Under the pieces are notes generated by a model that saw only the letters and a program-made list of their open reading frames with translations, had not been told where the DNA came from and did no database searches. Of a DNA stretch of 64,000 nt, positions 4,916 through 40,670 are shown in pieces. The position numbers and the translations under genes were made by a program. This stretch comes from a virus, in the IMG/VR virus record IMGVR_UViG_3300047552_001147, positions 30,507-94,506 of that record, one strand, 5' to 3'. Position 1 is the first letter of the stretch; each line of letters opens with the position of its first letter.

Positions 4916-5434
4916 CTATTTTGCCTTCTTAGCTACGATCTTCTGGTAGTTTTCCCAGCCGACTTCCTTGGCTGTGAAGCAGTGCTTGATGACAGCCTCG
5001 AACATGGTCGCCGACGCGCGCTTGCCAGAAGCACGATCGATCCACTCAAGGAACTCTTCCGCAGCCACATTCTCGGCGCGGATCTTACCTTTCTTCTCTT
5101 CATCAGCCGTGAAGATCGGATCAGCATCCGGGTGACCTTCTAGCCACTCCAAACCCTTTGCGAACATGTTGCGGCAGGTCTGCTCATATGCTCCGCCGTA
5201 TCCTGAGATCTCGTCCATCTCTGGTGTGAAGACGTATTTGGTTCTGACCTGCTGGACATCAGGAATATCCACACTCAAGTCAGGACCATATACGTCATCA
5301 GCATCCATGACAATCTTCTTGACGCATGTCAAGCATGTCGGGATAGACTCTCCCTTCACTACAGCTGTGACACCATCAATACCTTCCACGAAAGACTTAC
5401 CGCAATCACAGACTTGGTTTCTTACTCCTGACAC
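4916..5434 (-). CDS. Hypothetical protein with N-terminal Cys cluster (172 aa)
   Basis: The N-terminus has CDCG and CLTC about 23 residues apart, a probable zinc-binding site. The rest is helical and charged, ending in a Lys/Ala-rich stretch. The start overlaps the end of the deoxyribosyltransferase-like gene. It is the last gene of the operon that begins at 10069. No family recognised. Confidence 0.55.
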   Translation of the reverse strand: MSGVRNQVCDCGKSFVEGIDGVTAVVKGESIPTCLTCVKKIVMDADDVYGPDLSVDIPDVQQVRTKYVFTPEMDEISGYGGAYEQTCRNMFAKGLEWLEGHPDADPIFTADEEKKGKIRAENVAAEEFLEWIDRASGKRASATMFEAVIKHCFTAKEVGWENYQKIVAKKAK

Positions 5435-5898
5435 TGTCTTCTTATCTCCTCGATTAGTTCTGCTAGTGAGTTAACCTGTCGGGCGCCGAAGAATTCAGCA
5501 GTGATGTCCACGTTGCCCTTCTTCCAGAATCCTTCTGGGCAACATAGTATAACACTGCTAGACTTGCGAGCGAGTGTAATGCCGAGCTCCATCATCGAGA
5601 TTGGCGATGTTGTGGCAGGATCGAAGTAGAACGCGACGATATCTGCTTGCTCTGCCAGGTGGGTAAGCTCCCAAGTGACCTGCTCTACGAATCGCTTATC
5701 TGTCCTATCCTGCCGCCAAGATGAGTCCCAATCCGGTCTTCTAGGATTGAAGATCATCAGGCCAGCAACATCAGCAAGAGCAGCAACTACTTTAGATTGC
5801 CACGGCTCTGCGTTGCCCATAGCAATGCTGCCAGCGAGGAATAGTGTCTTTTTGGCCTTCCACCACTCTGCGTAGTGCGGGGCAGTAACTTCTTTCAT
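5422..5898 (-). CDS. Nucleoside 2-deoxyribosyltransferase-like protein
   Basis: The 158-residue product has the hallmarks of the Nuc_deoxyri_tr2 type: LFLAGSI near the N-terminus, NPRRPDWDSSW in the middle, then QVTWE, the AD-I-x-FYF-P strand, and SPISMMELG with the family glutamate. Known family members exchange or hydrolyse the N-glycosidic bond of deoxynucleosides, and phage versions are usually assigned to nucleotide salvage. The fold is Rossmann-like. It overlaps its downstream neighbour by 13 bases and its upstream neighbour by 4, within the early cluster. Substrate is not predictable here. Confidence 0.75.
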   Translation of the reverse strand: MKEVTAPHYAEWWKAKKTLFLAGSIAMGNAEPWQSKVVAALADVAGLMIFNPRRPDWDSSWRQDRTDKRFVEQVTWELTHLAEQADIVAFYFDPATTSPISMMELGITLARKSSSVILCCPEGFWKKGNVDITAEFFGARQVNSLAELIEEIRRQCQE

Positions 5899-18069: not shown

Positions 18070-18423
18070 ATGACACAAGCAAACACCGGCCGAATCTTCT
18101 TCAATTCTGATAAGTCACCCTCAGCACCGTTGCAGGTAGCTCTAGGTAACTTCCCCACTAGTGGTGTTAAGAACGTCCTCTTCAGAAACGTGGGGGATTC
18201 TCTTATCTACGCCAGAGGGCGTGCAAACACTACAGCCACCTCACCAGACGTGTCATTGATGCCTAAGCATGGCGGAGTCATCTCCCTCATCGGCACAGCC
18301 GGGCAGCCGGCGTACATCGAGTTCTGGAAGAGATTTGATCCGAGATTTGTCAACATTCACGACAGCTCGGCAGTTGTGAATGAGAAACCCGGTATTGTAG
18401 AAATTGAAGGTATTCAAGGGTGA
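18070..18423 (+). CDS. Hypothetical virion-type protein (117 aa)
   Basis: The sequence is beta-rich with Gly and Pro turns (FPTSGVKNVLFRNVGDSLIY, AYIEFWKRFDPRFV). It sits directly after the PAAR gene and before the 562-residue protein, so a baseplate or tail role is likely from position. No family recognised. Confidence 0.55.
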   Translation: MTQANTGRIFFNSDKSPSAPLQVALGNFPTSGVKNVLFRNVGDSLIYARGRANTTATSPDVSLMPKHGGVISLIGTAGQPAYIEFWKRFDPRFVNIHDSSAVVNEKPGIVEIEGIQG

Positions 18424-18427
18424 TTAG

Positions 18428-20116
18428 ATGAGTACTCACTTTAATGGCGAGCCGCTGTTCTTTGAGAAGGCCCCGATTGTTAAGCTGGCCCGCACTAAGC
18501 TAGGGGATGATCCGAAGCAGTGGGAGTCCGACATCCTGGAAGTCCTTCACCAGCAGCACCCATACATGCTGGACACCAACATCAGCATCAACATGAAGAA
18601 AGTTGATGCGGAGAGCGGTACAGGTATCGGCGCTATCGTGCTCGACGGTAAGATCAACGTTCCCATCGTCATTCATAACTACAGAATGGCGCCGCTGGAC
18701 GTCTTCCTTAACGACACAGAAGTGGTCCCGCTAACTCGTGAGAGAATCGAGCGGGCCATGAAGACGCTGGCCATTGGTAAGCCGGTAACCCCGTCCAAGG
18801 GCGAGGCGACCGATAGTTCTATCACGCACATGACTACCCCGCCTTATGACGGGAAGTACACGTTCGCTAGCAACCTATCGTACACCAAAGCCGAGTTCGC
18901 TTCGGCAATCAACCACACATTCAATGAGACCGGCTTCGTCCTCGATATCGCCAACAACGATCTCTGGAAAGAGGCCCTGAACTCTTACCTGACAAGTGCT
19001 CTAGAACAAGAAAAGACCGCACAGACCGGTCCAAAGTACTTCCTTGAAGAAAAAGCTCCGTTCCAGCACCAGCTTACAAAAGAGGCTGGCATTTATTCCG
19101 TACCGACTAGTAAGGGCGACAAAGTTGGCGTTCTCGTTCCTATCACAGAAAAGCTGGCAAGCTCTACAGATCGCTGGCTGTTTGTTTCCCTAGACGGTGG
19201 ATACATTCCGCTGGCTGATCCAACGATCCCGTTCAAACCGGTAGAACACGTAAAAGTTGCTAGAAAAGAACCCGTCAGCGGCTCCGGAATCTTCGTAGCC
19301 AATAACGGTAAGCTGCAAGCAACTGAGATATTCGATGTCATCTGCAAGCTCGGCTCTGGCGACGTTCTTCTCAAGGACATCCATGGGCGGGAATGCCGGA
19401 TGGTCAAGTCCGCTAATGTGGACCGCATTCAGATGGGCGGAGGCCTCCTAGTCGTGCCGGAGAACTATATGTTCCTGCCGACGACGGAGCGCCTGAGCCT
19501 GACGCACGTTAAGGTAGCAAACCTGCTTGAGGATGGTTCTGACCGCATCACGGTTAGAAACCAAAACTCTCGTTTGCTATTCAGCAGTGGCAAGCTTTGG
19601 GAGTTCGGTGATCTGCTGTCTAAAGAGGGCAGCTATCCTGATGAAGTTCTGAACGCGCTGTCACCTTATTTTGATGACCAATCTTTGCAACTGTTGCTGA
19701 CGATTCCAACCGGCCAGCAACGTACGTTTACAGTTAAGACCGCCGGCATTGATAAGACAGCTTCAGCTGATGTAGCCGTTCCGGTTATCAGTCGCGAATC
19801 GATCGCGGCTATTAACCAGGCAGCCGCTGTTATCGATCGCAAGGCCGCTGGCTTCCTTAAGATCGCCGCCAATGAGGCGAGCGAAACTGTAGACACACTG
19901 CTAGGCCTCAACTTCCTCAACAAGTCCAATCTTCACAAATTCGTGGAGAACATGGACAAGGTTGGCGAAGCACGCCAAATCGTGGGACAGCTTCTCATAG
20001 CCTCCCGCCTTGGCCTGGATGTGGATGACGCTCCGCTACGGACGGCGTTCTTCGCTCTAGATGAAGTTGAACAGGACCTTCAGCAGCTGTATAACGTTAC
20101 TACCGTTAACAACTAG
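18428..20116 (+). CDS. Large virion-module protein (562 aa), unknown fold
   Basis: I do not recognise the family. The N-terminus (LFFEKAPIVKLARTK) and later segments (QEKTAQTG, LTKEAGIY, TVKTAGIDKTASADV, FLKIAANEAS) repeat the Lys-x-Ala motif typical of this phage's structural proteins. Helices at the C-terminus (about 455-560) follow a mixed alpha/beta centre. It is in the same operon as the RNA polymerase, spike and terminase, so it may be a tail or internal virion protein. Confidence 0.6.
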   Translation: MSTHFNGEPLFFEKAPIVKLARTKLGDDPKQWESDILEVLHQQHPYMLDTNISINMKKVDAESGTGIGAIVLDGKINVPIVIHNYRMAPLDVFLNDTEVVPLTRERIERAMKTLAIGKPVTPSKGEATDSSITHMTTPPYDGKYTFASNLSYTKAEFASAINHTFNETGFVLDIANNDLWKEALNSYLTSALEQEKTAQTGPKYFLEEKAPFQHQLTKEAGIYSVPTSKGDKVGVLVPITEKLASSTDRWLFVSLDGGYIPLADPTIPFKPVEHVKVARKEPVSGSGIFVANNGKLQATEIFDVICKLGSGDVLLKDIHGRECRMVKSANVDRIQMGGGLLVVPENYMFLPTTERLSLTHVKVANLLEDGSDRITVRNQNSRLLFSSGKLWEFGDLLSKEGSYPDEVLNALSPYFDDQSLQLLLTIPTGQQRTFTVKTAGIDKTASADVAVPVISRESIAAINQAAAVIDRKAAGFLKIAANEASETVDTLLGLNFLNKSNLHKFVENMDKVGEARQIVGQLLIASRLGLDVDDAPLRTAFFALDEVEQDLQQLYNVTTVNN

Positions 20117-20136
20117 CGTCTGCTTGTGAGGTTTCA

Positions 20137-21183
20137 ATGGGCCACTCTAGGCCCCAAATTGCTAAAGAGTTCCGCATCAATGAGCGGACACTCTGTTGGC
20201 TAGAACAGACTGGTCGGCTCCATCTTGAGTGGAAGCCGTTAAACGGCCTGCTAACTTGTGAGCTAGACGACGACGCTCGTCGAGTGCTCGCTTGTGCTGC
20301 CGTGTCTGTTACAGCGCTGGATAACGTCCTGCCTTTCCAGCGGTTCCTCATTCTCAGAACGCTCCAGCTTCCTGCCGACGAGCAGTACCAGGAGCTGCTA
20401 GACCGCAACATCTTTGCGCCAGCTGGCTTTAGCTTAGAAGCTATCACCGCTATCAGAGAGCAGATAATTGATCGGCTTCCGCTGGTTGTGCGCCGATTTG
20501 TGAAGACTAATCGCCCGCCAGAGACAGACGAAGAGCGGCAATGGCTAGACGGTGTGCTGGATGCGTGTGAGGTTCACCTCGCGTACCACCACCCAGACCT
20601 AGAGCAATCGTTCCAGTTCATGCCGAATCCGGAGTACAAGGAAGCGGTGGATTGCGCGGTTAGCACCAAATCGAGCTACGCAGACATTCAGAAATTCTTG
20701 ATTGATGTGCTAGGATTGCGGGTATCTGTGGAGGGAATCGCCTTCTATCAGCAGCTCTTCCACGACATCAACATCGTGTCGACAGACAATCTGCGGATGT
20801 ACCTAAAGAAGGTCAAGCCTTCTCTCAGATCGCGCATGGCTCTTGCTGTTAGCAGCTCGATTGATACCTTCAGAGTCAAGAGCGGCATCGACGACAAGTT
20901 TGAAGTCGACAAGGTCATGTCCGTCTTCAAGGACGACCTGATCAACGATCTGCTCAAGATGCTGAACAATAAAGCGCCAGAATCTGAGAAGGCATTCAAC
21001 AACACGCTGCGAAGTCTGGTTATTGTTTTGGACCGCATGGACCGGATCAAAAGCGCAAACACCAAGTCTGGCAACGGCGTCCCTCAGTTCTTCAAGACAA
21101 TCAAAGTCTCAGCCCAACCATCTAACGAGATGAAGATCTTCCAGCTACCATCTCCTGTTAAGGACAGCGCACAGTCACAATGA
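20137..21183 (+). CDS. Candidate small terminase or DNA-binding partner of TerL
   Basis: The gene lies directly upstream of TerL and overlaps it by 4 bases. The N-terminus (SRPQIAKEFRINERTLCWLEQTGRL) reads as a helix-turn-helix, as in small terminase subunits that recognise phage DNA. The remaining about 310 residues are helical. At 348 residues it is longer than typical TerS (150-200). Function is inferred from the HTH and position. Confidence 0.5.
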   Translation: MGHSRPQIAKEFRINERTLCWLEQTGRLHLEWKPLNGLLTCELDDDARRVLACAAVSVTALDNVLPFQRFLILRTLQLPADEQYQELLDRNIFAPAGFSLEAITAIREQIIDRLPLVVRRFVKTNRPPETDEERQWLDGVLDACEVHLAYHHPDLEQSFQFMPNPEYKEAVDCAVSTKSSYADIQKFLIDVLGLRVSVEGIAFYQQLFHDINIVSTDNLRMYLKKVKPSLRSRMALAVSSSIDTFRVKSGIDDKFEVDKVMSVFKDDLINDLLKMLNNKAPESEKAFNNTLRSLVIVLDRMDRIKSANTKSGNGVPQFFKTIKVSAQPSNEMKIFQLPSPVKDSAQSQ

Positions 21184-23000
21184 CTAGCTTTGGTGTGTCG
21201 CAAGTAATGCCGGTTGTTGATCTAATTGAACAACTGGCCGCAGCCGAAAACAGCGGAGAGATTGATGCAGACCGCTTCAACTGGGCAAAGTACAATGAGG
21301 CTGCCGAGAGGCTAGCCGAAGAGCTGTCTGAAGAGGCGCAGAAGAACCAACAGGACGCGCTAGACAACCTGACACCAGAGTCGGTAGCGCTTACGACATT
21401 GTCCGGTATTGTTGCCGGACTACTTACGGTAGATCAGCTGGCGTTCTCTTTCGAGGGCCGCGACTATATTCGTGGGCTATATGACCTTGTTGAGGAGTAC
21501 CCGGTCGGATGCCGTAATCAGATATGGCAGGCTGGACGTCAGGTAGAGAAGTCAACGACCCAATCGGCCAAGTCTATCGCGCTGGGGATAGCGTACCCGA
21601 CATACAAGACGCTCTACATCGCGCCTAGATTCGACCAGGTCACTGTGTTCTCACAGCAGCGCTTCAAGCCCATGTGCGAGGATTCAAAAGACATTGTCGG
21701 TCGCTGGATAGATCAGCACAGAATGCTGTGGCAGGTTGGTGCTAAGCAGTTTATGAACGGATCGTTCTTTAACTTCCGCTCCTGCTACTTGAATGCCGAC
21801 GGCGCTCGTGGTATTTCAGCTCACCATCTAATGATCGACGAGATCCAAGACGTTGTCTCAGATGCCGTACCTATTCTTGAACAAACCCAGTCGCACGCCT
21901 CCAAGGAACTGAAGTTCAACACGTACGCCGGCACTCCAAAGACCAACAGTAACGTCATCACACGACGATTCAAGAACAGTTGTCAGTTCGAGTGGCTGAT
22001 TAAGTGCGACCACTGCAACCACTGGAACTTCCCGGATGACAATATTGTCGGGGAGACGTTCTTCATGTGCGTCAGATGCTCTCGGGACATTCGTCCAGCT
22101 AACGGACAATGGGTTCCTGCGAGACCAGAGCTTCTAGACAAGTGCTGGGGATTCCGGCTACCACAGCTGATCGTACCATTCAAGACGCACGCGGATATCC
22201 TTGCAACCAAGCACGACCCGCAGGTATCACGTCGCCAATACTTCAACGAGTGTCTTGGGCTGTCATATGACGAGGGCGAGCTCGTTCTGGTTGAGCGCGA
22301 CCTTATCGAGGCTTGCGCCGCCGGTGATGGTCAACCTATGTGGGCGCCGTCTAGGGCGCACTCCATGACCATCCCCAAGTTTATGGGCGTGGACTACGGA
22401 ACTGCGGAAGGCGAGAAGCCGTCGTGGAGCGTGATAACCGTTGGCTTCATGAATGCTATGGGCCAATTCCAGGTCATCTTCATGGAGAAACTGGTAGGCG
22501 AGAAAGCCAACCTATCTAAGCAGCCGGAATACATCAACAAGGTTGCCCGATCGTTCGGTGTGACCTGGATGGGTACAGACTGGGGATTCGGCGCACCGCT
22601 GAACCAGAGACTGGTCGATGAATTTGACTGGCCGCGATATGAGGGTCGACGTATCTTGATGGAAATGCAGTACGTCAAGCAGAAGCTTAAGGCCCAGTGG
22701 AACCCACAGGCCCAGCGGTACATGATCGACCGTAACCAGTCGATGACCGACTTCATTGACCGCATCCGAACTAAAAAAGTGGTCTTCTTCCACTATGACC
22801 AGTTCAAACACTTCACAAGCGATTTCACGTCGATCTTCATTGAATTTGACCCTGACCATGGGACGATGAAGTACGATCACGATCTGCCGGACGACGCCTT
22901 CCACTCTGCCAACTACGCGTACATGACAGCGCTGCAGTATTACGGCCAGCTGGTCAACACATCACTGCCAGATACGAACGGGTTCGAAGAGCCGTTGTAA
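21180..23000 (+). CDS. Terminase large subunit (TerL)
   Basis: The 606-residue product has the ATPase motor followed by the packaging nuclease. Walker A is GRQVEKST (about 119-126), Walker B is LMIDEIQDV (about 216-224), a Cys4 ribbon follows (CDHC ... CVRC), and the RNase H-like nuclease has Asp in VDYGT (about 404), TDWGFG (about 465) and DDAFHSANY (about 571). It cuts concatemeric DNA and pumps it through the portal. It is the last gene of the block and ends at a terminator. The Glu in place of Gly in Walker A is known in many phage terminases. Confidence 0.93.
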   Translation: MTSFGVSQVMPVVDLIEQLAAAENSGEIDADRFNWAKYNEAAERLAEELSEEAQKNQQDALDNLTPESVALTTLSGIVAGLLTVDQLAFSFEGRDYIRGLYDLVEEYPVGCRNQIWQAGRQVEKSTTQSAKSIALGIAYPTYKTLYIAPRFDQVTVFSQQRFKPMCEDSKDIVGRWIDQHRMLWQVGAKQFMNGSFFNFRSCYLNADGARGISAHHLMIDEIQDVVSDAVPILEQTQSHASKELKFNTYAGTPKTNSNVITRRFKNSCQFEWLIKCDHCNHWNFPDDNIVGETFFMCVRCSRDIRPANGQWVPARPELLDKCWGFRLPQLIVPFKTHADILATKHDPQVSRRQYFNECLGLSYDEGELVLVERDLIEACAAGDGQPMWAPSRAHSMTIPKFMGVDYGTAEGEKPSWSVITVGFMNAMGQFQVIFMEKLVGEKANLSKQPEYINKVARSFGVTWMGTDWGFGAPLNQRLVDEFDWPRYEGRRILMEMQYVKQKLKAQWNPQAQRYMIDRNQSMTDFIDRIRTKKVVFFHYDQFKHFTSDFTSIFIEFDPDHGTMKYDHDLPDDAFHSANYAYMTALQYYGQLVNTSLPDTNGFEEPL

Positions 23001-23004
23001 AATA

Positions 23005-23030
23005 GATGGCAGGGTGTTACCCCCGCCATC
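23005..23030. terminator. Bidirectional terminator between TerL and the minus-strand block
   Basis: GATGGC-A-GGG-TGTTA-CCCCC-GCCATC forms a stem of about nine pairs. On the minus strand it is followed by TATTTT. It lies between convergent stop codons four bases away on each side. Confidence 0.75.
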
Positions 23031-23034
23031 TGTA

Positions 23035-23202
23035 TTACTTGCTTGTCTCTTGGCTGCTGGTGTGGCAACTCACAGAGCAGCGCACACCAGTCAAAGACAG
23101 GAAGATGAGCGCGATGAGCAGTAGAACAATGCTCTCCACGAGAGACATGTTGTTTCTCCACATCTTACGCTCTTCTTGCCACCAGTCGCGCAGCTTCTTC
23201 AT
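23035..23202 (-). CDS. Small single-pass membrane protein (55 aa)
   Basis: ATG 23202 overlaps the upstream stop (ATGA). A positively charged head of about 18 residues precedes a membrane helix (VESIVLLLIALIFLSLTG) and a short tail with two Cys. The charge pattern predicts an N-in, C-out topology. A holin, spanin or exclusion role is possible, but no lysis enzyme is adjacent. Confidence 0.5.
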   Translation of the reverse strand: MKKLRDWWQEERKMWRNNMSLVESIVLLLIALIFLSLTGVRCSVSCHTSSQETSK

Positions 23203-23516
23203 CTGCTCTTGGCCTCGCAGTCGCAGCACACGGTTTGTTTGCCGATGTATCCCTGGTACAGGGCTTTAACCTCTACCGCATACTGTAGAGGTCTCCTTGT
23301 CCTGCAAACAGGGCAAACAAACGAGACACAACGAACAACCTCTTGTAGGAAGTTGTTAGCAATTCTGTCCGCCGACTTCTCATCACGAGAGACCATCAAA
23401 GTCAGTACATCAATCAACTGCTGCGCTGAACCCGTCGGGTTGGCGAAATCACTGTCCCAAGGTAGAGAAGCAATTTCTCCAGCGCTTAGGCCAATAACGT
23501 AGACGTCGCTACTCAT
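23199..23516 (-). CDS. Small protein with C-terminal zinc ribbon (105 aa)
   Basis: CPVC and CCDC about 30 residues apart near the C-terminus form a Cys4 zinc ribbon. The N-terminal 60 residues are helical. Overlaps of 4 bases on both sides. Unknown function. Confidence 0.5.
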   Translation of the reverse strand: MSSDVYVIGLSAGEIASLPWDSDFANPTGSAQQLIDVLTLMVSRDEKSADRIANNFLQEVVRCVSFVCPVCRTRRPLQYAVEVKALYQGYIGKQTVCCDCEAKSR

Positions 23517-23770
23517 TTCTTCCTCCGCTTTCTAGGGCGAATCAAGCGCACCTCGCTTTGCTTGGTGCAGCACTCCACGGTCTCCACAACGTTCCCGCTC
23601 CTCATCTCGATGTACAGTGGGATATGTCCGCACTCGCTGCGGAGCGCGTCCAGCACCCACATCTCAATCTGTCGCTTCGCCGCGTCGTTGTCCGCCTTCT
23701 TGTGGAAGGCCTCAAACGACACGTCGATGACAGCGGTCAATATCAGTCGGGACAGCTTGGCTTTAGCCAT
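23513..23770 (-). CDS. Small basic protein (85 aa)
   Basis: A mixed alpha/beta sequence ends in a strongly basic tail (RLIRPRKRRKK) that could bind nucleic acid. It is downstream of the NAD-salvage pair in the same operon. No family recognised. Confidence 0.5.
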   Translation of the reverse strand: MAKAKLSRLILTAVIDVSFEAFHKKADNDAAKRQIEMWVLDALRSECGHIPLYIEMRSGNVVETVECCTKQSEVRLIRPRKRRKK

Positions 23771-23778
23771 TGGAGCGA

Positions 23779-25224
23779 CTACAATCCGCTCCGCACGCGG
23801 TCACGGATCTCCGCGTACGTCTGCTCGTTGTGGAGCTGGCCGTTCGAGAACACCTTGCGGAACGCGCAGCTTGTCACGTCAGTCTTCTTCGCGTTCTGCT
23901 TCAACGTGAAACGACCGTTCTGATCGTGATAGACGGCCAAGAGGCCCTTGGCGGACTTCTTGGTACCGTTATCAGTCACAGGATTCTTGAAGATCTCACG
24001 CGCCTCATTGCCGACTTCGACGTAGGTGGCCTTCATCGCCCAACCGAGAGTGTCTCTCGTGTTGTACTGGTAGGTGTAGCTACCGATTCCGGCCACCCAG
24101 TTGGTCGACGCGAACCCCTGCTGCATCAGTCGCTCGCAGATAGCCGCCGCCAGCTCTCTGGTGATAGAGTCACCGTAGATCAGGCCGATGTGGGGATCGA
24201 GGACCTTGAATCCCTTGCTGTTCGTAGTGCCTCCGAAGAGTTCCCACAGCAGCTGGATTGAGCCCTTCTTCTCCACTTCGGTTTCCCCGTCAGGATCGCC
24301 ACAGATGATCTCCAGAGGAGTCTTCTTGGAGCTGTCTGGACGGATGACGACCTTGCCCGCACGGGCCATGATCTCCGACTTGAGCGTCGGAAGGATCTCG
24401 GTCAAAACCTTCCAGTAGTCCCAGGTGTCCGAGACGATGGACACGATCCCCTTGGGGTACAGATCGAGGATGCGGCGGAACGTGTCCACCTCAGACTCTC
24501 TCGTACCTGCACACATGACACTGTGTTCCGTCGCCGGAACAGAGAATCCTGTGATCCCTCTCGGAGCATGGTAGTACTTCGAGAGGAATGAGGTGGCCGG
24601 AACAGTGTCAGAGCCGTCGAAGGACAGGAGATGTCCCGCCCCGCTGGTCTTGGCCGTTTCGAGCGAGCTCATTCCACGGAAACTGAAGTCGTGCCCCTGG
24701 AAGTTGACGGACGCAGCTTCATCAGAGGTCATGTCAGCGTATCTGGTGAAGATCTGCCGATAGTGTCTTGCGATGGTTGCTGATGTGCACGGCTGCCAGA
24801 TCGTAGCCGACATGATGGTTTCCAGGTAGTTGACCAACCAGAAAGCATCAGGTACCGTGTTCATCATGACAAGCGAGGGAACGCCGGCAGGAACCACCGA
24901 ACCTTCCGGCAACGCCCAGATCTCGATCGGCAGGCCTGAGTGTCTTCCCAGCAGCCGGAGGTGATAGTCGTTCGGTCTTACCCCGAGAGCTGCCTCCATC
25001 ATATCCGCAAAATCGCCGATGTTCATTCGCTCCAAGAACGGGACCAGGTACTCCTTCAGGAAGTACTGCAGTCCGAAGAACACCACCGCTTCCTCGCCGG
25101 TAGGGTCCTTGATGCGACACTTCCGGGGAGTAAAGTTGGAGAACACCAACTTGGTGCCATCCGGGTATTGCCGACGGTGGTCGGCCTTGTACCAGTCAAT
25201 CAGATTCAGTGAGTTGTCAGTCAC
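23779..25224 (-). CDS. nadV: Nicotinamide phosphoribosyltransferase-family enzyme (NadV/Namat-like)
   Basis: I chose GTG 25224, one base after the upstream stop (481 residues, as expected for the family); a longer frame runs into the upstream gene. Family landmarks: DWYKADHRRQYPDG at the N-terminus, GLQYFLKEYL, PEGSVVPAGVPSL, FSFRGMSSLETA, FDGSDTVPA, VPATEHS with the catalytic His at 234, VSDTWD and VIRPDSS. NAMPT joins nicotinamide to PRPP to give NMN. In the published phage NARP1 pathway a family member (Namat) instead joins nicotinamide to ADP-ribose pyrophosphate to give NAD+. The tight coupling to a PRPP-synthetase-like gene fits NARP1. The two activities cannot be told apart from sequence by eye. 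Confidence 0.88.
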   Translation of the reverse strand: MTDNSLNLIDWYKADHRRQYPDGTKLVFSNFTPRKCRIKDPTGEEAVVFFGLQYFLKEYLVPFLERMNIGDFADMMEAALGVRPNDYHLRLLGRHSGLPIEIWALPEGSVVPAGVPSLVMMNTVPDAFWLVNYLETIMSATIWQPCTSATIARHYRQIFTRYADMTSDEAASVNFQGHDFSFRGMSSLETAKTSGAGHLLSFDGSDTVPATSFLSKYYHAPRGITGFSVPATEHSVMCAGTRESEVDTFRRILDLYPKGIVSIVSDTWDYWKVLTEILPTLKSEIMARAGKVVIRPDSSKKTPLEIICGDPDGETEVEKKGSIQLLWELFGGTTNSKGFKVLDPHIGLIYGDSITRELAAAICERLMQQGFASTNWVAGIGSYTYQYNTRDTLGWAMKATYVEVGNEAREIFKNPVTDNGTKKSAKGLLAVYHDQNGRFTLKQNAKKTDVTSCAFRKVFSNGQLHNEQTYAEIRDRVRSGL

Positions 25225-25225
25225 G

Positions 25226-26086
25226 CTAGCGTACCTTGCAGACGATGAGGTTGTTGGGAGGAGTTGTGTTCCAATATGCCGGAATGCTGTTGGTAACAGC
25301 AATCTTGGAGAAGTTGGCCATGAGTTCGTCAAAGCCCTTGGAGAAAATGCCGTGTGTGACGCACAAGGCGATATTGCTCACCGGGACTTTTGCGTCTTGT
25401 AGCGCCTTCGAGATCGCGATGAAGGTTGCGCCCCCATCACAGATGTCGTCGACGATGATGTAGTTGTGATCCGGAAATACCGGATCACATAGTTTGGCTG
25501 AAAGGCTGCGGACTCCGTCTTTTTCCGTGCGCTTCTTCAGCGCTTGGATCATCGGGTAGTCTCTGCCTTCGAGTACCTTGGGTACCCAAGAAGATGCGCC
25601 AGCGTCAGGGATGACAATGGTGCAATCCTTTTTGCCCGCAGTAACCTCGCGCACGAGCCACGGGGTTACGTCATTTTCCTTAGCATTGTCCAGCAATGCC
25701 AGCATCGCCGGAGAGTGTGGACGCAGCACCCTCACCCGCTCGAATTTCATCGAGTTGATGATCCGGCAGTTGATGCGAAGGTCGTTCGCCTCCCCTGGCC
25801 TGAATGCTCTGTCAGATCTGCTGGCAGACATGTACGTGATTTCCAGGTCTGTCAGCGCCGGGTACGCTTCTTTGAGCTGAGCAAGCAACAAGAGATAGTC
25901 CCCGGTCTGGATACCGGCAATTACGCGCGTAGCCCTGTGATTGAATTCGTTCAGGGACACGCGATCGCTTGGCTTTTCGAAGTGCACATGCCCGTCCGGG
26001 AATCGCGAAAAAGGGACCCTTTCCAGCTGTATAGGATTGTATACGGGATCAATGTCGTGATCATCCAGATCGTCGTAGTGACTCAT
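25226..26086 (-). CDS. PRPP-synthetase-family enzyme (Prs or Adps-like)
   Basis: The 286-residue product has the phosphoribosyl-pyrophosphate synthetase layout: SRSDRAFRPGEA (the Arg/Asp loop), VIPDAGASSW, and the PRPP-loop equivalent VDDICDGGATF. It is slightly shorter than cellular Prs (about 310). Prs makes PRPP from ribose 5-phosphate and ATP. The NARP1 homologue Adps instead pyrophosphorylates ADP-ribose. The stop is two bases from the next start, so the pair is one unit. A perfect palindrome with 10-bp arms lies in the gene at 25465-25489. Confidence 0.82.
   Translation of the reverse strand: MSHYDDLDDHDIDPVYNPIQLERVPFSRFPDGHVHFEKPSDRVSLNEFNHRATRVIAGIQTGDYLLLLAQLKEAYPALTDLEITYMSASRSDRAFRPGEANDLRINCRIINSMKFERVRVLRPHSPAMLALLDNAKENDVTPWLVREVTAGKKDCTIVIPDAGASSWVPKVLEGRDYPMIQALKKRTEKDGVRSLSAKLCDPVFPDHNYIIVDDICDGGATFIAISKALQDAKVPVSNIALCVTHGIFSKGFDELMANFSKIAVTNSIPAYWNTTPPNNLIVCKVR
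25465..25489. repeat. Perfect 21-bp palindrome, extended to 10-bp arms
   Basis: TGTGATCCGG, AAATA, CCGGATCACA. The core (25467-25487) matches the consensus TGATCCG-N7-CGGATCA exactly. It lies about 240 bases before the end of the PRPP-synthetase-like gene. Confidence 0.75.
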
Positions 26087-26397
26087 GCGCGTCTCCCTTT
26101 AGGGTATTTTTGGTGACGGCGCCTCTTGTTGATGAGGGCCTGGTTTGGGTTTCGTATGTTGTACTCTTTGCGGTACGCTTTGCTTTCTCTGTTTTCACAG
26201 CATCCGCTGCAATTGTGGATGCCTTTGATGTAGCCAGCGGCTATGGACCAGCATCCCCACTCCGGTGTGATGGCTTGTGGATAGTTACACCAGGTTGGCT
26301 GGCGGTACATTTTGATAAACTGCCCGACAGTTACGCCAGGCTGTTTATACGCAGCTTCCCGCTCTTCATCAGAGAGCTTGTGAAAGAAGGGTTTCAT
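26083..26397 (-). CDS. Small protein with Cys cluster and basic tail (104 aa)
   Basis: The C-terminal half contains CSGCC and further Lys/Arg-rich sequence (NKRRRHQKYPKGRR). This could be a zinc-stabilised nucleic-acid-binding protein such as an HNH-like fragment, but the HNH core is not seen. It overlaps the PRPP-synthetase-like gene by 4 bases. Confidence 0.5.
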   Translation of the reverse strand: MKPFFHKLSDEEREAAYKQPGVTVGQFIKMYRQPTWCNYPQAITPEWGCWSIAAGYIKGIHNCSGCCENRESKAYRKEYNIRNPNQALINKRRRHQKYPKGRRA

Positions 26398-26840
26398 CAG
26401 TAGTAGCCCACGATTTCTTTGCAGTCTCGACAGATCAGTGCCCAGTAGCCGGGCTTAGGTCTGCCGAATAGTCGCGCCCAGAAAGCTTTCCATCCCCACC
26501 AGTCACGGCACACCTGATTAGGGAGGAACTCTTCAAACGGGGCGTTGCACAGAGGACAAAAGTCCGGATCTTGCACAAGCACCGCAATCCGCGTGCTGCA
26601 GTGCAGCGTCAAAAACTCGGCCTCGTAGCGCTTGCTTTTAGACAGGACACAGATGTACACCTTACCGTTATCGGCGGTAAATCCCTGAACCTCGAAAATC
26701 TGTGTCGCTGACATCACCGGATCGTAGATGAGATCCCCGACATCTACGTCAGACGCATCAATAAGCTGAATATGATAGAGGCGGTCGCCGCTAGCATCTG
26801 CCTTCATCGTGCCGTCGAAGTATTCGCTGACACGAATCAT
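26397..26840 (-). CDS. Zinc-ribbon protein (147 aa)
   Basis: ATG 26840 overlaps the upstream stop (ATGA). The N-terminal 85 residues are beta-rich. The C-terminal part has CPLC and CRDC flanking a Trp-rich segment. Unknown function. Confidence 0.5.
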   Translation of the reverse strand: MIRVSEYFDGTMKADASGDRLYHIQLIDASDVDVGDLIYDPVMSATQIFEVQGFTADNGKVYICVLSKSKRYEAEFLTLHCSTRIAVLVQDPDFCPLCNAPFEEFLPNQVCRDWWGWKAFWARLFGRPKPGYWALICRDCKEIVGYY

Positions 26841-27031
26841 TTCTTCACCTTTTCCAGGTGCCGCTTGTTCCAGGCGGAGAGCTTCCAATCCCGCTGCGAC
26901 CGTTTCGTGCACGTCTTGTTTCCACACTTGACGTACGCGATCTCGCCGTTGCCGAAGTAAGCGACAATCAGCGGGTGGTACCCGCAGTCGTGGCAATCCT
27001 CGACGTAGTTTGTGTGTTGTGTTCTAGTCAT
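26837..27031 (-). CDS. Lar-like mini zinc ribbon (64 aa)
   Basis: CHDCG and CGNKTC followed by SAWNKRH resemble the Lar-type layout of two Cys pairs and Trp-Asn-x-Arg. It is a second such protein besides the one at 8879. An anti-restriction function is possible but untested. Confidence 0.5.
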   Translation of the reverse strand: MTRTQHTNYVEDCHDCGYHPLIVAYFGNGEIAYVKCGNKTCTKRSQRDWKLSAWNKRHLEKVKK

Positions 27032-27240
27032 TTCTGACTCCTTTCTGAATAATCACAATACCACTCGAAATCGTTAGTCCACATTCTCTGTCTTCTAATG
27101 GCATAGTGGCGGGTGACCCACTCTAGCCACACAAGCGACCCGTCTTTCAGGAAGACAGGCAGCAGCGCGAATTGCTTCTTGACTATTTTGGTCTCTTTCG
27201 AGATCTTGTCTATTTGTGGGAATCCTTGGTACAGTTTCAT
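27028..27240 (-). CDS. Small protein, tandem paralogue 1 (70 aa)
   Basis: The sequence MKLYQGFPQ ... FALLPVFLKDGSLVWLEWV matches its neighbour at 27249 in order and spacing. It reads as a small beta sheet. The two genes are adjacent and likely arose by duplication. Unknown function. Confidence 0.55.
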   Translation of the reverse strand: MKLYQGFPQIDKISKETKIVKKQFALLPVFLKDGSLVWLEWVTRHYAIRRQRMWTNDFEWYCDYSERSQK

Positions 27241-27248
27241 GGCTTTAC

Positions 27249-27443
27249 CTAGCCCTTAATGCGCTCGCGGCGCACACAGACCCACGAGGATTGGTCAAAG
27301 ATACCGCGATCGAGCGTCCAGCGGACGGTCTCGAGCCAGACGATGTCGCCGTTCGACATCTTCGTTGGGAGCAGAGCAAATCGATTGATGATGATCCTCT
27401 CGGGGCTGTGCTCAGCAATGGGGAGTCCTCGCCAGAGCTTCAC
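27249..27443 (-). CDS. Small protein, tandem paralogue 2 (64 aa)
   Basis: MKLWRGLPI ... FALLPTKMSNGDIVWLETV aligns with the 27028 gene across most of its length. The conserved core is MKL-aromatic-x-G-x-P, FALLP, and DG/GD-x-VWLE. Unknown function. Confidence 0.55.
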   Translation of the reverse strand: MKLWRGLPIAEHSPERIIINRFALLPTKMSNGDIVWLETVRWTLDRGIFDQSSWVCVRRERIKG

Positions 27444-40373: not shown

Positions 40374-40670
40374 ATGTTCGAATCGTTTTACAGTGGTCTT
40401 GTCGACGAGCTCGTTAAGGTGGCTAAGAAGGACAAAGATCGTCCCTCGAAAGGCCACAGCGTTGGCATGCTTGGCGGTATGCTAGGCGCCGGTGTCGGTG
40501 CCGCGCACGGGTACACTAAAGGTCTCTGGGGTCTTGGCCGCACCATCCCAATGATTGCTAAAGGTACTGCTGGCGGTGTCGGTGGATATCTGGCGGCCCG
40601 CACTGCATACTCTGCTATGAAGCGGGCTAAGAAGCACACCAAGAATGTTGCCGAGGGCGACGACCAGTAA
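40374..40670 (+). CDS. Second glycine-zipper virion-module protein (98 aa)
   Basis: The ribosome site is AAGGAG. The N-terminus (MFESFYSGLVDELVKVAKK) matches that of the 2022 gene. The middle is a glycine zipper (GMLGGMLGAGVGAAHG, GTAGGVGGYLAA) and the end is basic. It overlaps the next gene by one base. Possibly ejected with DNA during infection. Confidence 0.55.
   Translation: MFESFYSGLVDELVKVAKKDKDRPSKGHSVGMLGGMLGAGVGAAHGYTKGLWGLGRTIPMIAKGTAGGVGGYLAARTAYSAMKRAKKHTKNVAEGDDQ

Follow-up and report, generated by a model that had tools for sequence, protein, structure and literature searches.

A probable NARP1 module with a highly divergent Adps protein in an uncultured phage lineage

Among described systems, the NARP1 module of Bacillus phage SPbetaL1 (PDB 9W5X/9W5W) consists of an Adps gene followed by a Namat gene with touching ends, and the same arrangement is found in the stretch of 64,000 nucleotides analysed here (the window), which corresponds to bases 30507-94506 of a virus record with a total length of 94,506 bases. 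Adjacent Adps and Namat genes are likewise present in NARP1 loci of mycobacteriophages and Rhodococcus phages (Thibault, Grayson; relatives of DyoEdafos), with the difference that the operon of DyoEdafos includes RyDEP, an RyR-domain cADPR hydrolase (PMC13232231), of which no counterpart was detected in the scanned genes of the window. Homologous nicotinamide transferases are also encoded by Vibrio and Caulobacter phages as part of NadV-NadM salvage (ValKK3, Ccr29). However, these phages have NAMPT-type proteins (GMGGGLLQ in ValKK3) without Adps in the flanks examined and in some cases with an NMNAT-Nudix neighbour (Ccr29), whereas the window combines a Namat clamp with Adps and lacks such a neighbour. 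Namat is distinguished from NAMPT by a clamp helix with the consensus GSX-X-X-TRD, in which X is aromatic, and by a clamp loop that supplies a residue stacking on adenine, Arg40 in 9W5W (PMC12774641).

The gene pair of the window is very probably a phage NARP1 module and as such is clearly a further case of an already described system rather than a novel one. The two reading frames are open and intact and belong to a tightly spaced minus-strand run at 26086-23513. The first one (25226..26086, minus strand) encodes the Adps candidate, a putative ADP-ribose pyrophosphokinase of PRPP-synthetase fold with 286 amino acids, begins with ATG and terminates with TAG at 25228-25226. It is followed by the gene for the Namat candidate, a putative nicotinamide ADP-ribose transferase of 481 amino acids (23779..25224, minus strand), with a GTG start and an AAGG sequence nine bases 5' of it. 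The preliminary description of this locus had recognised neighbouring members of the PRPP-synthetase and NAMPT families, which is confirmed here; the gap of two bases that it gave between stop and start is in fact a single base (25225). A longer mechanically called ORF (25332-23779) only adds a TTG-initiated extension within the Adps gene. Directly upstream, a gene for 104 amino acids (26083..26397, minus strand) overlaps the Adps start by four bases (26083-26086), and directly downstream a gene for 85 amino acids (23513..23770, minus strand) begins 8 bases past the Namat stop, both being without Pfam or PHROG match. A DNA-level search with the cassette region gave zero matches, and a terminase-anchored search for related phages, made to see if the cassette had been inserted recently, retrieved only terminases of 24% identity; the phage belongs to an uncultured lineage that has no relative at DNA level among the 50,697 phage records searched.

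The second protein belongs to PHROG 448 (E 1e-177), matches the Pfam families NAPRTase (2e-39) and NAMPT_N, and among solved structures has SPbetaL1 Namat (9w5x/9w5w) as top match with 495 bits, against 238 bits for the bacterial (Xcc) and 232 bits for the human NAMPT. It is 49.6% identical to SPbetaL1 Namat over 97% and shares its clamp motif (FTYQYNTRD in SPbetaL1, YTYQYNTRD in the window), while the Adps proteins of the two phages are merely ~26% identical and the phage lineages differ. The clamp-helix motif GSYTYQYNTRD (residues 381-391; 24052..24084, minus strand), with aromatic residues at positions 3 and 7, fits the published Namat consensus exactly (PMC12774641). The clamp loop, NFTPRKCRIKDPTGEEAVVFF (residues 30-50; 25075..25137, minus strand), was located by alignment and places R37 at the position of SPbetaL1 Arg40. 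Aligned with 9W5W, 18 of the 20 NAD+-contacting residues are identical, and the two exchanges, A362S and F392Y, are both common among other Namats. At the clamp-helix site, the phage and Xcc NAMPTs of the set mostly have GMGG.LLQ..(.)RD; this NAMPT-type pocket entrance (GMGG.LLQ) is not present in the window protein, which has the Namat clamp instead. In a maximum-likelihood tree of 42 proteins, a placement proposed in the preliminary description, the candidate falls with characterised Namat into a clade apart from NAMPT with support of 100/100; this clade unites the window with SPbetaL1, ICP1, Felixounavirus REP8 and mycobacteriophage Thibault, and every NMNAT-linked or canonical NAMPT lies outside it. 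In Namat trees, the Thibault/Grayson group appears as sister to the window protein, with weak support. In the sampled set and within the flanks examined, an Adps gene lies close to nearly all genes for proteins with the Namat motif and to none of those for NAMPT-type proteins.

The first protein is highly divergent, with ~24-36% identity to other members of the family, at most ~36% to anything found and ~19% to E. coli Prs. It is assigned to PHROG 619 (E 3e-52) and narrowly misses the Pfam Pribosyltran cut-off (23.8 vs 26.3 bits), but the model predicted with AlphaFold (mean pLDDT 79.5) resembles PRPP synthetases along its full length (Z 21.7, with 260 aligned residues). With the NCBIfam Prs model TIGR01251, whose cut-off is 113 bits, it reaches 68.7 bits and, like SPbetaL1 Adps (106 bits), stays under the cut-off, while E. 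coli Prs lies far over it (423 bits). The companion tree of 62 proteins places it with Adps and not with Prs, split from four canonical Prs at 100/100, on a long branch whose position inside the Adps clade is poorly resolved. Among the columns that separate Adps from these four Prs, 11 of 16 are in the Adps state in the window. The Adps-type PRPP loop DDICDGGATF (residues 213-222; 25421..25450, minus strand) corresponds to DDxIDTxGT in canonical Prs, and all three loop residues that tell Adps from the four Prs (C216, G218 and F222) are Adps-like. All 15 invariant columns of a 16-member Adps alignment, in which the window itself is one row, are retained. The flexible loop is unusual, with KKRTEKDG where KKRDxxTG is normally found, and the common RDxxTG motif is likewise missing in L002 and L017, the nearest Namat relatives. 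When the protein alone was used as query against viral contigs no matches were obtained; an Adps profile search retrieved 595 relatives.

An ordinary salvage route, in which a divergent PRPP synthetase feeds PRPP to a NAMPT and the host NMNAT turns the resulting NMN into NAD+, has to be weighed against these results. In vitro, members of the Namat family still act as NAMPT, making NMN from PRPP (PMC12774641), and hence the second protein may also use PRPP; the Adps candidate is also too divergent for its substrate to be read with certainty, and an NMNAT may come from the host. We nevertheless regard this route as very improbable, as the second protein lies in the Namat clade and retains the clamp motif and the adenine-contact residues, and the first one falls outside Prs, carries the Adps loop and scores under the Prs cut-offs. 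The absence of a nicotinamide-nucleotide adenylyltransferase, noted earlier for the vicinity of the cassette, extends to the whole record: a six-frame search of all 94,506 bp, possibly an incomplete record, revealed no NMN adenylyltransferase (PF01467), with the control search being positive in 14/14 genomes. The preference for NARP1 over PRPP supply expressed in the preliminary description is thus supported by the Namat clade, the exact clamp motif, the partner from the Adps clade and the lack of NMNAT.

Following the published pathway, and judged by family membership as regards substrate preference and timing, the Adps of the window would transfer pyrophosphate from ATP to ADP-ribose, yielding ADP-ribose pyrophosphate, which Namat would couple with nicotinamide to form NAD+ in one further step. 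As ADP-ribose and nicotinamide are both leftovers of host NADase defences, for example those with TIR, SIR2 or SEFIR effectors, such a cassette could restore the NAD+ pool during infection and so allow the phage to escape an NAD-depletion defence, a presumed benefit which lies one step beyond the chemistry itself.

Homologues of this system are widespread on bacterial chromosomes. A profile scan with one genome per species yielded at least 580 confirmed stretches with chromosomal Namat homologues; the 80 kept from these are mostly from Bacteroidota and all (80/80) have the Namat motif, and among those kept, 46 of 72 full-length loci have Adps within 5 kb. The Bacteroidota chromosomal Adps-Namat pairs (L130-L209, for example L148, L164 and L170) often lie within runs of ADP-ribose-processing genes, among them those for NrtR, KptA, NADAR, ADP-ribosylglycohydrolase and macrodomain proteins. 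Active NARP1 systems encoded on chromosomes have been reported, and the pair of Paenibacillus foliorum makes NAD+ from ADP-ribose (PMC12774641). Clustering with cellular enzymes, which the preliminary description had taken to speak against NARP1, is therefore non-discriminating: Bacteroidota chromosomes bear Namat/Adps pairs with the same signature, and since many chromosomal homologues with the Namat motif adjoin Adps and the P. foliorum pair is active, a cellular grouping would not refute this assignment. In a larger tree built with a quick method, the window protein groups with phage sequences, adjacent to the main clade of Bacteroidota. Separation of NARP1 from NAMPT salvage cannot be achieved by phage-versus-cellular clustering, but it can be achieved by the clamp motif together with the Adps partner. 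One Adps-Namat pair labelled as phage (L038, Acinetobacter phage MD-2021a) adjoins a bifunctional NMNAT/ADP-ribose pyrophosphatase and chromosomal-looking genes, and in view of these neighbours the record may be a contig of bacterial origin with a wrong label.

Even with NARP1 chemistry, the cassette might have a general metabolic role in recycling ADP-ribose from phage or host ADP-ribosylation, and not in counter-defence. The neighbours of the Bacteroidota chromosomal pairs amount to such a recycling setting, and for this reason some weight is given to this explanation, which we consider an unlikely but appreciable possibility. On the other hand, the phage cassettes described in the literature rescue both cells and phages when a defence depletes NAD (PMC12774641; PMC13232231), and ADP-ribose genes of the kind seen on those chromosomes were not found beside the cassette of the window by Pfam, PHROG and profile scans. 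Among the minus-strand ORFs of the record, profile scans revealed no macrodomain, NADAR, Nudix, RyR-domain or ADP-ribosylglycohydrolase gene, only PF15891. Metabolic and counter-defence roles are not mutually exclusive, and the phage could also simply be replenishing NAD+ to support its own replication.

The PF15891 gene (nucleoside 2-deoxyribosyltransferase-like; 5422..5898, minus strand; 158 amino acids, Pfam 1e-31) lies 18 kb from the cassette, to which it is linked in this phage by the shared genome only. Few records of the phage collection contain this family (43 of 50,697), and relatives of the gene sit within Adps-Namat operons of other phages. On uncultured viral contigs, 17 of 80 Adps loci, or 13 of 60 after clustering, have a PF15891 gene nearby in the same orientation, and conversely 14 of 57 distinct viral PF15891 loci are near Namat, NAMPT or Adps. 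About half of the viral PF15891 loci that lie near a nicotinamide transferase adjoin NAMPT and not Namat, and hence the association concerns nicotinamide salvage as a whole. Neither Adps nor Namat is found near PF15891 in Tunturi_5, Slicko01, C1 and Marchewka; in Tunturi_5, PF15891 is fused to an ADP-ribosyltransferase domain. Given these known-phage neighbourhoods and the share of NAMPT among viral neighbours, PF15891 was not called as a NARP1 component. A function in NAD/ADP-ribose metabolism as a putative accessory enzyme is plausible. That it would be a third, accessory enzyme of NAD+ reconstitution, an N-glycosidase degrading an ADP-ribose-based signal or adduct and thereby feeding ADP-ribose or nicotinamide to Adps-Namat, comparable to RyDEP of a mycobacteriophage, is possible but unlikely.

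With this locus, a NARP1 module is added that contains one of the most divergent Adps proteins of the sample. No structure of Adps was available at the writing of PMC12774641, and the combination of a distant Adps with a fully conserved Namat clamp helps to show which Adps residues are relevant to ADP-ribose, namely DDICDGG.TF, PHS and THGxF.KG.

Elsewhere in the record, about a dozen small ORFs have an N-terminal helix in common (roughly MFTESFFDELEKLA), with unrelated sequence after it; they are located at L034:3388-12307 (record ~18388-27307) and in the window at 2022-2201 and 40374-40670. The helix is similar to the leader that targets T4 internal proteins to the capsid, and it may indicate a group of proteins that are packaged or ejected. 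In a scan of the minus-strand ORFs, three members matched DUF7666. At L034:6085-7863, three neighbouring ORFs, to which the DUF7666 match was not assigned, share a similar stretch (AWHFI/AWHLI), and because of it they likely form a tandem family.
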